A DNA stretch of 64,000 nucleotides from assembly GCF_020149915.1 (NCBI RefSeq), contig NZ_CP083760.1, positions 496,001-560,000 on the forward strand, written 5' to 3'. Made by a program: the position numbers and the translations under genes. Position 1 is the first letter of the stretch; every line of letters begins with the position of its first letter. The DNA is from Candidatus Sulfidibacterium hydrothermale. GTDB lineage: Bacteria; Bacteroidota; Bacteroidia; Bacteroidales; F082. The notes beneath the pieces were generated by a model. The model was not told where the DNA came from. It saw only the letters and a list, made by a program, of their open reading frames with translations, and ran no database searches. Positions 1 to 27,361 of the stretch are shown one piece after another.

Positions 1-395
1 TCCCAGTTCATTTGTGTGAAACCGAAATAACGATCGGTTGAGCTGCTAAACTGCACGGTACCAATGGAGTTCCCGCTTCCTGCACCGGCATTGAAATTCA
101 ACGAAGGCCACTGTTCGGCTTTGGTGTACCCCAGGCTTGCCCGGGCGGCTTCCACACGGGCTGCAGCCACCATCACATTTTTGTTGTTTTCCAGCGCTTT
201 GATGATCAAAGTATCCAGTACCGGGTCGTTAAATAATTCCCACCATCTTAAATTCACGATGGTGTCATTGGTTAGTGAGTCATATTGAAAAGTTGCCGGA
301 CCGGTGTAAACCGGTTTCACAAAATCAGGTCCGAGTTTACAACCCGAAAGATAGAGAAGCATTCCGGCAAGAAGGAAAACGAATATCTTTTTCAT
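1..395 (-). CDS. RND efflux outer membrane factor (TolC/NodT-like), C-terminus cut by window edge
   Basis: Only the first 131 codons are in the window. The translation starts with a lipoprotein signal (MKKIFVFLLAGMLLYLSGC, lipobox LSGC) followed by KLGPDFVKP, typical of NodT-family outer membrane lipoproteins, then the RWWELFNDPVLDTLI segment seen near the N-terminus of OprM/NodT proteins and a helix rich in Ala and Arg that would begin the periplasmic barrel. Family role: outer membrane exit duct of a tripartite pump. It starts 34 bp after the RND pump gene and is the last visible gene of the three-gene operon. The rest of the protein lies outside the window. Confidence 0.9.
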   Translation of the reverse strand, partial: MKKIFVFLLAGMLLYLSGCKLGPDFVKPVYTGPATFQYDSLTNDTIVNLRWWELFNDPVLDTLIIKALENNKNVMVAAARVEAARASLGYTKAEQWPSLNFNAGAGSGNSIGTVQFSSSTDRYFGFTQMNW

Positions 396-22526: not shown

Positions 22527-23168
22527 ATGAAAAAATTATTGGTTTTTGCAATGGGCTTGTTTTTGATTAGCCTGGTATTTATGGGATGTGATGATTCAGA
22601 CTCGGACAATCCGGGTAATTACATCAAACACGACAATGTATCATACGCGTTGAGCAACGGCTTTGTTTTTGATGCTTCGCAAAGTGAAAAAGATGCAAAA
22701 CTTGAAGATGGTTCTCTTGCCGTTTATCCTGTAGGACTGCTGCTGGTTTCTTCTGGCTTCACCATTTATCCTGTGGATGGAAACATTGATTCGATTTCCG
22801 GAACAGGAAGCGGGATTTTTTTTATAGCGTATTCTACCAGCTCGGATAAACTGGCTGATGGACATTATGTATTGGATTCTCTGGCTCTTGACCAATCCGG
22901 CATTTTTTTGTATGCTGATGCCGTTTTTGATTACAATGTAGCCACCGGAGATGGAATTGAAACAGAAATTAGTTCCGGAACGTTGGATGTAAAATCGGAT
23001 GGCGACGATTACGAAATTAGTTTTGATTGTAAAGGCAAAGATGGAAAATCGATTACCGGTTATTATAAAGGAAGCGTGGAATCTTATTTGTCCGCTGCGG
23101 TTCAGGTGAAAAGTTCACTTTCCCGCACGAAATCAACGGATGTGAAACAGCTTTTTGACAAAAAATAA
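22527..23168 (+). CDS. Hypothetical lipoprotein
   Basis: 213 residues from the Met just before the lipoprotein signal (MKKLLVFAMGLFLISLVF, lipobox FMGC). A Met six codons upstream (22509) is possible. After an Asp/Ser-rich linker the protein is beta-rich with no catalytic motif I recognise. DGHYVLDSLALDQSG and DYEISFDCKGKDGKSITGYYKGSV recall surface lipoproteins with a repetitive beta fold. Likely anchored in the outer membrane. It sits just upstream of the aromatic amino acid operon but has a separate promoter, and nothing links it to that pathway. Confidence 0.8.
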   Translation: MKKLLVFAMGLFLISLVFMGCDDSDSDNPGNYIKHDNVSYALSNGFVFDASQSEKDAKLEDGSLAVYPVGLLLVSSGFTIYPVDGNIDSISGTGSGIFFIAYSTSSDKLADGHYVLDSLALDQSGIFLYADAVFDYNVATGDGIETEISSGTLDVKSDGDDYEISFDCKGKDGKSITGYYKGSVESYLSAAVQVKSSLSRTKSTDVKQLFDKK

Positions 23169-23178
23169 CGCTCCATAC

Positions 23179-23208
23179 TTTGAAATAAAAAATATTTCTA
23201 TACATTTG
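23179..23208 (+). promoter_or_regulatory. Promoter of the attenuated aromatic amino acid operon
   Basis: TTTG at 23179-23182, an 18-nt spacer and a perfect -7 TACATTTG at 23201-23208. The expected start near 23215 is only about 15 nt before the leader-peptide ATG. Confidence 0.7.
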
Positions 23209-23229
23209 TCGCGTTAAAGAAAGAATACA

Positions 23230-23313
23230 ATGATTCAATTAATGTCAAACAACTTTTTTTACACCTTTTATTACTTTTATTTTAAAAGTGATACGGGGCT
23301 GTATGTGGTTTGA
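23230..23313 (+). CDS. Phe/Tyr-rich attenuator leader peptide
   Basis: 27 codons: MIQLMSNNFFYTFYYFYFK followed by SDTGLYVV and TGA. Codons 9-18 (23254-23283) contain five Phe and four Tyr in ten positions, which is extreme for any real or random peptide. It lies between a promoter and a rho-independent hairpin directly ahead of pheA. By analogy with pheL/trpL its role is to sense charged tRNA-Phe and tRNA-Tyr by ribosome stalling. It senses both amino acids, which fits an operon that makes both. No Shine-Dalgarno sequence is evident, as usual in the phylum. Confidence 0.85.
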   Translation: MIQLMSNNFFYTFYYFYFKSDTGLYVV

Positions 23314-23371
23314 CAATCAATAAAACAACAAAAACATAAAAGTCCCGGAAGTTTTTCGGGACTTTTTTTTT
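23243..23371 (+). promoter_or_regulatory. Ribosome-mediated transcription attenuator of the pheA operon
   Basis: Four pairing segments can be read. Segment 1 TGTCAAAC (23243-23250) pairs perfectly with GTTTGACA (23308-23315) in segment 2. Segment 2 CGGGGCT (23294-23300) pairs with AGTCCCG (23341-23347) with one G.U, extended by ATGT/ACAT (23303-23306 with 23334-23337): the antiterminator. Segment 3:4 AAAAGTCCCG/CGGGACTTTT (23338-23347 with 23357-23366) followed by five more T is the terminator. A ribosome stalled on the Phe/Tyr codons would mask segment 1 and free segment 2; one at the stop codon would mask segment 2. Confidence 0.85.
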
Positions 23372-23387
23372 GACAAAAAATAAAGAG

Positions 23388-24242
23388 ATGATAAAAATAG
23401 CCATGCAGGGAGTCAGGGGGGCATTTCATGAAATCGCCATCCGGAAATATTTTAATCATGATGATTATGAAGCGGTTCCCTGTGCTTCTTTTAATGAATT
23501 GTTTGATGCATTGCGCTTTCAACGGGCCAGTTATGGAATGGTAGCCATTGAAAATTCCATTGTGGGCAGTATATTGCCCAATTACACGCTTTTGCGGGAG
23601 TCGGGGTTGCGTATTCTCGGTGAAGTGTATTTGCGCATTGAGCAGCATTTGCTGGCTTTGCCCGGACAAAAAACAGAGGATATCAAAAAAGTGTATTCCC
23701 ATCCCATGGCGCTTCAGCAGTGTCGGGAATTTTTAACACCATTCCGCAGGAACGGGGTTCAGCTGGTCGATTCGGAAGATACTGCCTTGAGTGCCCGCTG
23801 GATCAGTGAAGGCAACATGAAAGGAGTGGCTGCCATTGCCAGCCGGCTGGCTGCTAAATTGTATCATCTCGATATTTTGGCCGAAGGGATCGAAACCAAC
23901 AAAATGAACTATACCCGTTTTCTTGTGGTTTCGGATGACGAAAACTACAAAAGTCACCTGGCCGGAAAAAAAATCGATAAAGCTTCGCTCTGTTTTATTT
24001 TGCCGCATCAGCAGGGACGCCTTTCTGAAGTACTTTCCGTACTCTCTTTTTATAAAATCAATCTTTCTAAGATACAATCACTTCCCATTGTGGGACAAGA
24101 ATGGGAGTATCTCTTTTATGTGGATGTTGATTTTTCAGATTTTGAAAAATATCGCCAGTCGCTGGATGCCATCCGGCCGCTTTTAAGTGAATTAACCGTT
24201 TTTGGTGAATATGAAAAAGGAGAAAAATTCTATGAAAATTGA
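23388..24242 (+). CDS. pheA: Prephenate dehydratase (monofunctional, with ACT domain)
   Basis: 284 residues from the ATG at 23388, just past the attenuator T-run; a TTG at 23370 lies inside the terminator and is unlikely. The catalytic domain starts KIAMQGVRGAFHEIAIRKYF and contains the MNYTRFLVVSDD segment with the Thr-Arg-Phe catalytic motif. A C-terminal ACT domain (about residues 195-275, SLCFILPHQQGRLSEVLSVL then KINLSKIQSLPI) should mediate Phe feedback. It converts prephenate to phenylpyruvate. There is no chorismate mutase domain; that activity is fused to the last gene of the operon. Its 3' end overlaps the next gene by 11 bp. Confidence 0.94.
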   Translation: MIKIAMQGVRGAFHEIAIRKYFNHDDYEAVPCASFNELFDALRFQRASYGMVAIENSIVGSILPNYTLLRESGLRILGEVYLRIEQHLLALPGQKTEDIKKVYSHPMALQQCREFLTPFRRNGVQLVDSEDTALSARWISEGNMKGVAAIASRLAAKLYHLDILAEGIETNKMNYTRFLVVSDDENYKSHLAGKKIDKASLCFILPHQQGRLSEVLSVLSFYKINLSKIQSLPIVGQEWEYLFYVDVDFSDFEKYRQSLDAIRPLLSELTVFGEYEKGEKFYEN

Positions 24243-25386
24243 TACAGCCAACCGGTTAAAAGTAGTCAGTGAATATTATTTTTCGCGTAAGCTGAAGGAA
24301 ATAGCCGCTTTGCGCGAAAAAGGCCAGGACATTATCAATCTGGGTATCGGAAGTCCGGATGGCGCTCCTGCTGCAGCGGTTATCGAGACGCTTGTCACCG
24401 AAAGCCGTCAGCCGGGGAATCATGCATATCAAAGCTATTCCGGAATTCCTGAATTACGACAAGCGTATGCTTCGTGGTACCAAAAATATTTCGGTGTGAA
24501 GTTGAATCCGGAGAATGAGATTTTACCGCTAATGGGTTCTAAAGAAGGAATCATGCACATCTCTATGGCTTTTTTAAATCCGGGTGACGAAGTGCTGGTT
24601 CCTAATCCGGGATATCCGGCTTATGCAGCGGTGGCCCGGTTGTTGGGTGCTACTGTGCGTTATTATCCATTGGATGAAAATAAATTTTGGCAACCCGACT
24701 GGACTGCCCTGGAGAAAACAGACCTTTCGAAAGTAAAAATCATGTGGATGAACTATCCGCATATGCCTACCGGTACCCGGGCTTCCCGTTCTCTTTTTGA
24801 ACAGGCTGTTGACTTTGGAAAGAAAAACCAAATTTTAGTGGTTAATGACAATCCGTACAGCTTTGTCCTGAACGATGAGCAGCTGAGTTTGCTAGAAGTA
24901 GAAGGAGCCAAAGAGGTGGCTTTGGAGCTAAACTCACTGAGCAAATCACACAATATGGCCGGTTGGAGACTGGGTTTGGTAGCCGGACATGCTGCGTACA
25001 TCAAAGCGGTTTTGCAGGCAAAAAGTAACATGGATTCCGGAATGTTTAAGCCGCTGCAACTGGCTGCTGTAAAGGCTTTGCAACAACCGGAGAGCTGGTA
25101 TCATGAGTTGAATGCCGTTTACCGGAAACGAAGAAAAATTGCTTTCGGGATTTTTGATGAGCTGCAATGTAGTTACAATAAACAGCAAGTGGGCATGTTT
25201 GTCTGGGCGAAAATTCCGGATACGGCCGAAAGCGGGGAACAACTGTCAGAGAAGATACTTCATGAAAATCAGGTTTTTATTACCCCCGGATTTATCTTTG
25301 GTTCTGCCGGAGAACGTTATCTGAGACTTTCTTTGTGTACGCCCGAAGAAAGACTGCTTGAAGCCAAAACAAGAATGATGAATTAG
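24232..25386 (+). CDS. PLP-dependent aminotransferase, class I/II
   Basis: 384 residues. An AAGGAG at 24217-24222 precedes the ATG at 24232, unusual for this phylum, and decides the start over the in-frame Met at 24211. PLP-fold landmarks: PNPGYPAYAAVARLLGA, WMNYPHMPTGT, VVNDNPYSFV, and the Schiff-base Lys in LNSLSKSHNMAGWRLG. Its position between prephenate dehydratase and prephenate dehydrogenase suggests transamination of phenylpyruvate and 4-hydroxyphenylpyruvate to Phe and Tyr. The fold is also like LL-diaminopimelate/aspartate aminotransferases, so specificity is inferred from context. Confidence 0.88.
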   Translation: MKIDTANRLKVVSEYYFSRKLKEIAALREKGQDIINLGIGSPDGAPAAAVIETLVTESRQPGNHAYQSYSGIPELRQAYASWYQKYFGVKLNPENEILPLMGSKEGIMHISMAFLNPGDEVLVPNPGYPAYAAVARLLGATVRYYPLDENKFWQPDWTALEKTDLSKVKIMWMNYPHMPTGTRASRSLFEQAVDFGKKNQILVVNDNPYSFVLNDEQLSLLEVEGAKEVALELNSLSKSHNMAGWRLGLVAGHAAYIKAVLQAKSNMDSGMFKPLQLAAVKALQQPESWYHELNAVYRKRRKIAFGIFDELQCSYNKQQVGMFVWAKIPDTAESGEQLSEKILHENQVFITPGFIFGSAGERYLRLSLCTPEERLLEAKTRMMN

Positions 25387-25400
25387 AAAAAAGAAAAAGA

Positions 25401-26243
25401 ATGAATGTATGTGTAGTGGGTATCGGATTAATCGGCGGGTCAATGGCCCTGGATTTGAAAAAACGTGAGTTTGCCCAAAAAGTGGTGGGTGTTGATGTGA
25501 ATCCGCAACATGCCAATATTGCCAAACTGAGCCGGTTGGTTGATGATGTGATGGAGCTGGAAGAGGCTATCCGGATTTCTGATCTGGTTATTGTGGCTAC
25601 ACCGATCAATGTAACCAAGAAGTTGTTGCCGGAAATCTTAACTCTTTGTCAGGGAACCCAAAAAGTGGTAACCGATGTGGGATCTACCAAAGCCGGTATT
25701 TTGCAAAAAATTGCCGATCATCCCAACCGGAAACAATTTGTAGCTTCTCACCCTATGGCCGGAACTGAGTTTTCCGGTCCGTTGGCTGCCATCAGCCGTT
25801 TGTTCGATTACAAAACAGCCATTATTTGCGAAAAAGAAAACAGCAGTCCGGCAGCACTCGAAATGGTAGAACAGATGTACGAAACCCTGCACATGAAAGT
25901 CATTTATATGCAGCCGCATGAACATGATGTCAGTGCTGCTTATGTTTCGCATATTTCGCATATTTCGGCTTTTGCTCTTTCGCTGGCGGTGCTTGAAAAG
26001 GAAAAAGACGAGAAGAGAATTCTTGATCTGGCCAGTGGTGGATTTGCTTCTACCGTGCGATTGGCCAAAAGTTCAGCGGAAATGTGGGTTCCTGTTTTTG
26101 ACCAAAATTCCGATTATGTTTTGGAAGTACTGGATACCTACATCCATAAACTGGAAGCTTTCCGGGAAGCTATACAAAAGAAAGATCACGACGAGATTAC
26201 CCGTTTAATTCACGAATCCAATAAAATTCAAAAAATACTTTAA
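25401..26243 (+). CDS. tyrA: Prephenate dehydrogenase
   Basis: 280 residues. N-terminal Rossmann motif VGIGLIGGSMALDL, VGVDVNP after the second strand, then VTDVGSTKAGI, HPMAGTEFSGP with the catalytic His region, and a helical C-terminal dimerisation domain (AAYVSHISHISAFALSLAVL). It oxidatively decarboxylates prephenate to 4-hydroxyphenylpyruvate. It has neither a fused chorismate mutase nor an ACT domain. It lies 14 bp after the aminotransferase and 11 bp before the DAHP synthase gene. Confidence 0.94.
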   Translation: MNVCVVGIGLIGGSMALDLKKREFAQKVVGVDVNPQHANIAKLSRLVDDVMELEEAIRISDLVIVATPINVTKKLLPEILTLCQGTQKVVTDVGSTKAGILQKIADHPNRKQFVASHPMAGTEFSGPLAAISRLFDYKTAIICEKENSSPAALEMVEQMYETLHMKVIYMQPHEHDVSAAYVSHISHISAFALSLAVLEKEKDEKRILDLASGGFASTVRLAKSSAEMWVPVFDQNSDYVLEVLDTYIHKLEAFREAIQKKDHDEITRLIHESNKIQKIL

Positions 26244-26254
26244 AATTAGTTATC

Positions 26255-27361
26255 ATGCCTAAAGATCTGCATATCAAAAAATTGTCAGAATGGGAAGAAT
26301 ATCATGAACGGCCATTTGTCATTGCCGGTCCCTGTAGTGCCGAATCGGAAAAACAGGTGGTGGAAACCGCCATTGGTTTAAAAAAAACCGGAAAAGTAGA
26401 TATGTTCCGTGCCGGAATCTGGAAACCGCGGACGCGTCCCAACAGCTTTGAAGGAGTGGGAGCCAAGGGGCTTTCCTGGCTGAAAAAAGCCAAACAGGAA
26501 ACTGGCTTGCCGTTGACCATTGAAGTGGCCAATGCCAACCATGTTTATGAAGCACTGAAATACGGGGTGGATGTGTTGTGGATTGGAGCCCGTACATCAG
26601 CCAATCCTTTTGCTGTTCAGGAAATTGCCAATGCCATGCAGGGGGCAGATATCGGTGTGTTGATAAAAAATCCGGTAAACCCGGACCTGGAGCTGTGGAT
26701 TGGCGCCATTGAACGGATTTATCAGGCTGGAATAAAAAAAATCGGACTGATTCACCGGGGCTTTTCTACTTATGAAAAATCGAGTTACCGGAATCTTCCG
26801 CAGTGGCAGATTCCTATCGAAATGAAAAGCCGTCTTCCGGAGATTCCCATGCTGAATGACCCCAGTCATATCGGAGGAAAAGCAGAGCTGATTCTGGATC
26901 TTTCACAAAAAGCCATGGATCTGAATTTTGACGGGTTGATGATTGAATCACACGTGAATCCAAAGGAAGCATTGAGTGATGCCCAACAACAAATTACTCC
27001 GGAAGAGTTGGGCAAATTACTTGACCAGCTTGTGTTACGTAGTCCCCGCCCCACTGACGAAAAACAATTGAATGTTTTGGAAGAACTGCGTGGAAAAATC
27101 GATTGGCTCGATAAGCAGTTCTTAGATCTTATTGAACAACGCATGCAGGTGGCCGAAGCCATTGGTGAATACAAAAAACGGAATAACATCAGTATTCTGC
27201 AAAACAAACGTTGGGAAGATATCATTTATAAAAGTATCGAAGAAGGCGCTAAACGCGGCTTAAGCCGGGAATTTATCAACCGGGCTTTTAAAGCCATCCA
27301 CCAGGAATCCATCAACCATCAGATGGAAATCATGAACGGTAAGAAAAAACCGGAAGCTTAA
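26255..27361 (+). CDS. Bifunctional DAHP synthase / chorismate mutase
   Basis: 368 residues. About residues 1-260 are a type I-beta (KDPG-like) 3-deoxy-7-phosphoheptulonate synthase: PFVIAGPCSAESEKQV, FRAGIWKPRTRPNSFEGVG, DVLWIGARTSANPF, LIHRGFSTYEKSSYRN, MLNDPSHIGGKAELI. About residues 275-360 are an AroQ-type chorismate mutase (LEELRGKIDWLDKQFLDLIE, MQVAEAIGEYKKRNN). It therefore supplies both the first shikimate-pathway step and prephenate for the two enzymes encoded upstream. The fusion lets the mutase domain serve as allosteric sensor in known homologues. Last gene of the operon. Confidence 0.95.
   Translation: MPKDLHIKKLSEWEEYHERPFVIAGPCSAESEKQVVETAIGLKKTGKVDMFRAGIWKPRTRPNSFEGVGAKGLSWLKKAKQETGLPLTIEVANANHVYEALKYGVDVLWIGARTSANPFAVQEIANAMQGADIGVLIKNPVNPDLELWIGAIERIYQAGIKKIGLIHRGFSTYEKSSYRNLPQWQIPIEMKSRLPEIPMLNDPSHIGGKAELILDLSQKAMDLNFDGLMIESHVNPKEALSDAQQQITPEELGKLLDQLVLRSPRPTDEKQLNVLEELRGKIDWLDKQFLDLIEQRMQVAEAIGEYKKRNNISILQNKRWEDIIYKSIEEGAKRGLSREFINRAFKAIHQESINHQMEIMNGKKKPEA

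Follow-up and report, generated by a model that had tools for sequence, protein, structure and literature searches.

What does the short region between promoter and pheA contribute to the control of the aromatic amino acid operon of Candidatus Sulfidibacterium hydrothermale? The window, i.e. the whole stretch of 64,000 nucleotides that was analyzed and to which the positions in Table 1 refer, carries here a short ORF with a dense run of Phe and Tyr codons, followed by competing RNA stems. According to our analysis, this is very probably a classical ribosome-mediated transcription attenuator of the E. coli type, which would sense charged tRNA-Phe and tRNA-Tyr.

Organization of the operon and its leader region

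To judge by the genes downstream of the leader – pheA, tyrA and a DAHP synthase fused to a chorismate mutase – the operon serves the synthesis of both Phe and Tyr and includes an enzyme at the entry to the aromatic pathway. The gene domains agree with the initial annotation, which had matched the dual Phe and Tyr content of the leader to an operon making both amino acids. For pheA, the top NCBIfam model reaches 207 bits, under its cut-off of 219. The start of the aminotransferase gene is uncertain: its ORF is open from a TTG at 24202, and the first ATG is at 24211. For the protein encoded by 24211-25386, LL-diaminopimelate aminotransferase models score highest, and the best 25 of 66 models are all under their cut-offs.

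Table 1. Features of the leader region and of the genes that follow it (positions in the window).
Feature	Position	Strand	Details
Bacteroidota-type promoter, TTTG-18-TACATTTG	23179-23208	+	TTTG 23179-23182, 18 nt, TACATTTG 23201-23208
Leader peptide ORF, 27 codons, MIQLMSNNFFYTFYYFYFKSDTGLYVV	23230-23313	+	ATG 23230, TGA 23311-23313
Segment 1, TGTCAAAC, outer arm of 1:2	23243-23250	+	pairs with segment 2b
Control codons FFYTFYYFYF (5 Phe, 4 Tyr)	23254-23283	+	codons 9-18, from the sequence
Segment 2a, CGGGGCT (23294-23300) plus TATGT, antiterminator arm	23294-23306	+	resembles the 3' arm of the terminator
Segment 2b, GTTTGACA, partner of segment 1	23308-23315	+	overlaps the final leader codon and the stop
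Segment 3, ACATAAAAGTCCCG	23334-23347	+	common to antiterminator and terminator
Intrinsic terminator, 13-bp stem-loop (23338-23366), T tract 23363-23371	23338-23371	+	AAAAGTCCCG 23338-23347 with CGGGACTTTT 23357-23366
pheA, prephenate dehydratase	23388-24242	+	Pfam PF00800, 196 bits
Class I/II aminotransferase	24211-25386	+	Pfam PF00155 on 24214-25383
tyrA, prephenate dehydrogenase	25401-26243	+	Pfam PF02153 and PF20463; NCBIfam NF006307 above cut-off
DAHP synthase fused to chorismate mutase	26255-27361	+	Pfam PF00793 and PF01817

The promoter, the 27-codon leader with its aromatic run, the stems 1:2, 2:3 and 3:4 and the tract of nine T had all been proposed from the letters of the sequence, and each of them is present as described. 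Two details are refined: four of the nine T fall within the drawn terminator stem, and in the minimum-energy fold the F/Y codons, too, are paired inside the 1:2 arm, a pairing absent from the earlier list. The leader may start at 23230 or at a second, in-frame ATG at 23242, which would give a 23-residue peptide. In the 2:3 pairing, CGGGGCT joins AGTCCCG (23341-23347) with one G-U pair, and ATGT (23303-23306) joins ACAT (23334-23337). The terminator stem ends 21 nt before the ATG of pheA. For the region 23215-23380, the folding energy is -43.2 kcal/mol, compared to -23.5 +/- 3.1 kcal/mol for 200 shuffles, none of which was as good (z -6.3). This anatomy is far beyond chance.

Conservation of the Phe/Tyr leader

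The sample consists of 69 loci of named assemblies, an order-level sample with the enzyme in 127 of 295 genomes, and the own genome. Out of 193 pheA loci, the 188 with at least 150 nt upstream were used; five with less (L064, L065, L068, L101, L160) were left out, as were G154 (a place without sequence), G279 and four fragments. Two records from other groups were retained among the 188, one from Lachnospiraceae (L067, positive) and one from Deltaproteobacteria (L069, negative). ORFs of 8-50 codons, located in up to 400 nt upstream, were counted as leaders if they had six or more F/Y in 10 residues. Such an ORF occurs in 174 of the 188 upstream regions and is absent from 14; the reverse strand yields 8/188 and dinucleotide shuffles 3.4%. 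With at least eight F/Y in 10 residues, the count is 132/188 compared to 0.16% in shuffles. The conserved run in homologs, which the initial annotation had named as a check, is thus clearly present. The closest named relatives are Bacteroidales assemblies, the best being 89% identical in PheA; accordingly, "the class" is taken below as Bacteroidia.

Some genomes are counted twice, so that the 174 loci contain 162 distinct leaders. Both amino acids are well represented: at least two F and at least two Y are found in 156 of the 162, with means of 5.7 Phe and 3.8 Tyr per leader. Synonymous codons are mixed (TTT 581, TTC 196, TAT 330, TAC 219), which argues for selection on the encoded residues instead of on a T-rich stretch. 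Trp lies within the F/Y run of eight distinct leaders (8/162), and examples with Trp in or beside the run are L104, L111, L119 and L206; perhaps these leaders sense all three aromatic amino acids.

Leaders differ in how F and Y are arranged within the run. This bears on the reading that the leader encodes an arrest peptide, i.e. that the nascent aromatic chain stalls the ribosome on some signal, with the same RNA switch downstream. The run is indeed hydrophobic and kept as an aromatic block, and a halt anywhere in it gives the same RNA outcome. The variable order, however, together with runs of H, W and I/L/V before his, trp and ilv genes in the own genome, fits the sensing of codons better than that of one specific nascent chain, and we regard an arrest peptide as very improbable.

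Of 153 loci, 105 have the motif TAnnTTTG within 70 nt 5' of the leader start, compared to 5.6% in shuffles; only three loci have it between terminator and pheA. As far as sequence can tell, this distribution speaks against a start of the operon downstream of the hairpin, which had been named at the outset as a refutation. The two-box pattern TTTG-16..20-TAnnTTTG is present upstream of the leader in 75/165 loci, and the median distance from the end of the promoter box to the leader start is 22 nt (n=113). Shine-Dalgarno-like words before the leaders are not enriched (5/152, with 10 expected), and the preceding region is A-rich. Both features are in line with the lack of Shine-Dalgarno use that is reported for this group in the available text of two studies (PMC3155529, PMC9976891).

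Terminator, antiterminator and their co-variation

A T-tailed hairpin follows the F/Y run in 160 of the 174 leader loci, compared to 2.5% in shuffles; no terminator was detected in the remaining 14. Such T tracts behind the hairpin speak against the view that the leader controls the translation of pheA, by initiation or reinitiation, instead of its transcription. The stem at our locus ends near enough to pheA to affect initiation, and the accessible part of one report (PMC4833913) proposes that several phyla, Bacteroidetes among them, reinitiate translation downstream of leader genes. Yet the distance between hairpin and gene is not kept: among the listed loci it varies from 12 nt (L035) to 205 nt (L036). 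We give translational control a slim chance and continue with transcription attenuation.

An attenuator calls for a stretch behind the run that pairs with the 5' arm of the hairpin. This 2:3 pairing reaches p<=0.05 in 132 of the 160 loci and is without significance in 28. In a swap test, a stretch at a fixed position behind the final F/Y codon was paired with its own terminator arm and with the arms of other loci, a design that avoids a choice of segments guided by the partner. Of the 160 loci, 154 entered the test (spacing 34-110 nt; six left out), yielding 101 distinct arms with one locus each. The own arm pairs at -13.24 kcal/mol, permuted arms at -8.73 +/- 0.24 kcal/mol (2000 permutations); the resulting z of -19, like the other z values given here, is not an independent probability, because the loci are related to each other. 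The own arm is better than the swapped mean in 98 of the 101 cases, within the best tenth of arms in 63, and better than a shuffled arm at p<=0.05 in 87. Furthermore, this fixed stretch and its own 3' arm have a word of at least six bases in common in 57/101 loci, compared to 22% with arms from elsewhere. Judged by these comparisons, the pattern is one of compensatory change in the three-way set of segments 2, 3 and 4.

The outer 1:2 stem behaves differently. Its 7-bp core is invariant in the six nearest sequences, so that no co-variation is visible there; an inspection of base pairs in these six was uninformative, since the stems are nearly constant and the alignment of two rows is off by one base. 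Farther out, the own pairing of the outer stem exceeds the shuffled mean in only 80 of 143 leaders, with z -6.9 for the comparison with swapped partners. Better supported is a pairing between the F/Y codons and the sequence that follows them, which exceeds it in 105/143 (z -14.2). The comparison thus weakly supports an outer 1:2 stem beyond the close relatives, and as a general feature it was not borne out against shuffles. Co-variation in the stems had been suggested as a second check at the outset: it came out for the antiterminator and terminator arms (2:3 and 3:4), with a mixed outcome for 1:2.

The spacing is constrained as well. With the first nucleotide of the final F/Y codon as reference, the antiterminator arm starts at a median of 15 nt (sd 3.4), compared to 23 nt (sd 14.4) in shuffles. 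In 90 of 101 loci (shuffles: 61%), its midpoint falls within the footprint of a ribosome at the stop codon (-17 to +14). A ribosome covers about 12 nt of RNA downstream of its A site, so that the 15 nt correspond to roughly its leading edge. With this general value, the geometry predicts that the antiterminator would be free when the ribosome is halted in the run and covered when it stands at the stop.

Could the hairpin simply terminate the upstream gene, with a short ORF next to it by chance? An ORF on the same strand does end at 23168, and the hairpin is a good intrinsic terminator. A promoter box, however, stands between this ORF and the leader, and the conservation of the leader, the preference for the own arm and the fixed spacing all argue against a coincidence, which leaves this reading with practically no probability. 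The locus instead joins the features of leader-peptide attenuators: an ORF rich in codons of the pathway, a terminator before the first gene, an exclusive and co-varying antiterminator, and a geometry suited to the ribosome.

A model for the switch

In the attenuation model, RNA polymerase would start roughly 15 nt upstream of the leader ATG, as judged from the promoter box. When Phe and Tyr are ample, the ribosome would reach the stop codon and cover segment 2; the 3:4 terminator would then form and end transcription near 23371. When Phe or Tyr is short, the ribosome would halt within the control codons, leaving segment 2a just past its leading edge. Segment 2a could then pair with segment 3 before segment 4 exists, the terminator could not form, and pheA, the aminotransferase gene, tyrA and the gene for DAHP synthase/chorismate mutase would be transcribed. 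Probably, the genes of the operon are transcribed only under such a shortage. Because F and Y codons are interspersed, a shortage of either amino acid should suffice, as in an OR gate.

Masked folding agrees with this scheme, as does the spacing, and both favor the earlier proposal that the position of the ribosome would choose the fold through segment 2. For an RNA that ends at 23350 and a ribosome halted at codon 9, 11, 14, 16 or 18, the fold of minimum energy contains 2:3; for the RNA between the stop-codon footprint and 23371, it contains 3:4. Once the RNA is extended to 23371, the terminator is part of the minimum-energy fold in every masked state tested. Readthrough would hence have to be kinetic, like in known attenuators, and would depend on a leading ribosome coupled to RNA polymerase. 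Without any ribosome, the RNA ending at 23316 folds into 1:2 (-24.4), and the RNA ending at 23347 (23215-23347) already folds into 2:3 (-27.1), which makes the fold of the untranslated leader uncertain.

Taxonomic distribution

In a phylum-level sample, the enzyme is present in 258 of 296 genomes. The 29 best-scoring loci of this sample – top matches, hence a biased set, for which shuffles were not run – include 28 with a leader: 23/23 from the class, 3/4 from outside it, and two repeats from the same order. Among 52 further chosen upstream regions, the leader occurs in 8 of 10 class members and in 2 of 42 genomes outside the class (shuffles 0.4%). A phylum-wide leader was dropped on account of these 2/42. 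According to the sampled genomes, the Phe/Tyr leader is mainly a feature of Bacteroidia, with few cases outside.

Two class members, L274 and L275, have no leader. The ORF upstream of their pheA resembles the C-terminus of an EPSP synthase; pheA therefore seems to lie inside another operon there.

Other candidate amino acid leaders in the genome and the order

In the own genome, a putative trp leader, MNKMNLNNNWWWLLFVRN, lies at C1:850480-850598 on the minus strand (loci L194 and L229), with a WWW run and a T-tailed hairpin; by eye, the ORF after it looks like trpE. This locus matches the Rfam family Bacteroid-trp at 48.5 bits, just below the cut-off of 49, and is the one listed match of the genome.

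Similar candidate leaders precede genes for other amino acids. On the minus strand at about 2.706 Mb, MRTTRRHHHHLHFHPLR stands before hisG (L224) and is followed by a T-tailed hairpin. In the order-level set for hisG (36 genomes, six of which gave no locus), an ORF with at least three His in 10 residues precedes the gene in 24 of 30 loci, compared to 6.3% in mononucleotide shuffles. Likewise, MKRVFSNIHIIIVLLLVVISP with a T-tailed hairpin precedes ilvD (L225; minus strand, about 2.247 Mb). In 19 of 28 order-level loci (29 loci, one fragment left out), ilvD is preceded by an ORF with eight or more I/L/V in 10 residues, compared to 1.8% in shuffles. Upstream of a thrA-like gene (L228; minus strand, about 2.391 Mb), a short ORF ends in VVTGTTTTTP and has no clear terminator; judged by its residues, it is a possible Thr leader.

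Taken together, we consider it likely that Bacteroidia, without Shine-Dalgarno pairing, possess a set of classical attenuators – for Phe/Tyr, Trp, His, Ile/Leu/Val and perhaps Thr – with short leaders that lack a Shine-Dalgarno sequence, and that the Phe/Tyr member acts as an OR gate with two inputs, set before an operon that includes an entry enzyme of aromatic synthesis. If this is true, the leading ribosome and RNA polymerase would be closely coupled in leader regions throughout Bacteroidia.

Comparison with known systems

At the gathering score, Rfam predicts one tRNA and nothing else in the whole window. The family Phe_leader (RF01859) aligns to 23251-23371 with 28.2 bits, under its gathering score of 55 bits; membership in this sequence family was hence rejected, though the leader would work in a similar way. 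At lax thresholds, the leader resembles Phe, His, Trp and Thr leaders as well as unrelated small RNAs, with MicC highest (31 bits), and because such unrelated RNAs score alike, this resemblance says little. With an E limit of 10, the pheA leader has 30 matches, and Bacteroid-trp (RF01692) is not one of them.

Bacteroid-trp is nevertheless a known motif of Bacteroidota, as described in the text available from Weinberg 2010 (PMC2864571). Like our leader, it is a cis-regulatory leader of Bacteroidota; unlike ours, it has Trp codons and a trp gene. Among the Rfam families met here, this Trp case alone is specific to Bacteroidota. For Flavobacterium psychrophilum, a study from 2021 (PMC9723704) gives, in the portion at hand, strong clues for leader-peptide attenuation before amino acid operons and places before pheA a structured element without Rfam hits that is present in other Flavobacteriaceae. 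No peptide is given there for this element, nor any occurrence beyond Flavobacteriaceae, and the main text does not use the word phenylalanine. A transcriptome map of B. thetaiotaomicron mentions, in its available text, short ORFs reminiscent of leader peptides, where pheA is not named (PMC7366714). Actinobacterial leader peptides, according to the accessible part of PMC1262725, are similar in that amino acid genes outside Proteobacteria are regulated by RNA, and differ by phylum.

The initial annotation had hinted at novelty, recalling no such case from Bacteroidota. This holds insofar as no Phe/Tyr attenuator of Bacteroidales is described in the open-licence literature, among the matches listed; it was too strong in view of Bacteroid-trp and of the pheA element of F. 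psychrophilum, as far as the available text describes them. The kind of attenuator is known, and in Bacteroidota it has in part been described before. New, in the sense that we did not meet them in the open-licence literature among the matches listed, are the Phe/Tyr content, the conservation across the class, the co-variation and the spacing rule. What our comparison would add is the Phe/Tyr case across Bacteroidales and the sampled class members, together with candidate His and Ile/Leu/Val leaders in Bacteroidales. A work by Lopatovskaya from 2010 reportedly covers Bacteroidetes/Chlorobi, and an earlier prediction may exist.

As far as sequence can tell, the switch is real, ordinary in kind, well supported and widespread. 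A large class with members in gut, soil and sea thereby gains a defined and testable mode of amino acid regulation. Since the switch works only with a ribosome close behind the polymerase, it also offers a handle on the coupling of transcription and translation in Bacteroidota. The spacing rule, about 15 nt from the last control codon to the antiterminator, can be used to find further leaders; the family is large.

A classical counterpart is the enterobacterial pheL-pheA system, which consists of a leader before pheA, competing helices and an intrinsic terminator; our locus has the same three elements in the same relation to the gene. It departs from pheL-pheA in several points: in the leaders described here, Tyr codons come close to Phe codons in frequency (3.8 vs 5.7 per leader), Shine-Dalgarno-like words before the leader are not enriched, and the operon behind the terminator includes tyrA and a DAHP synthase.
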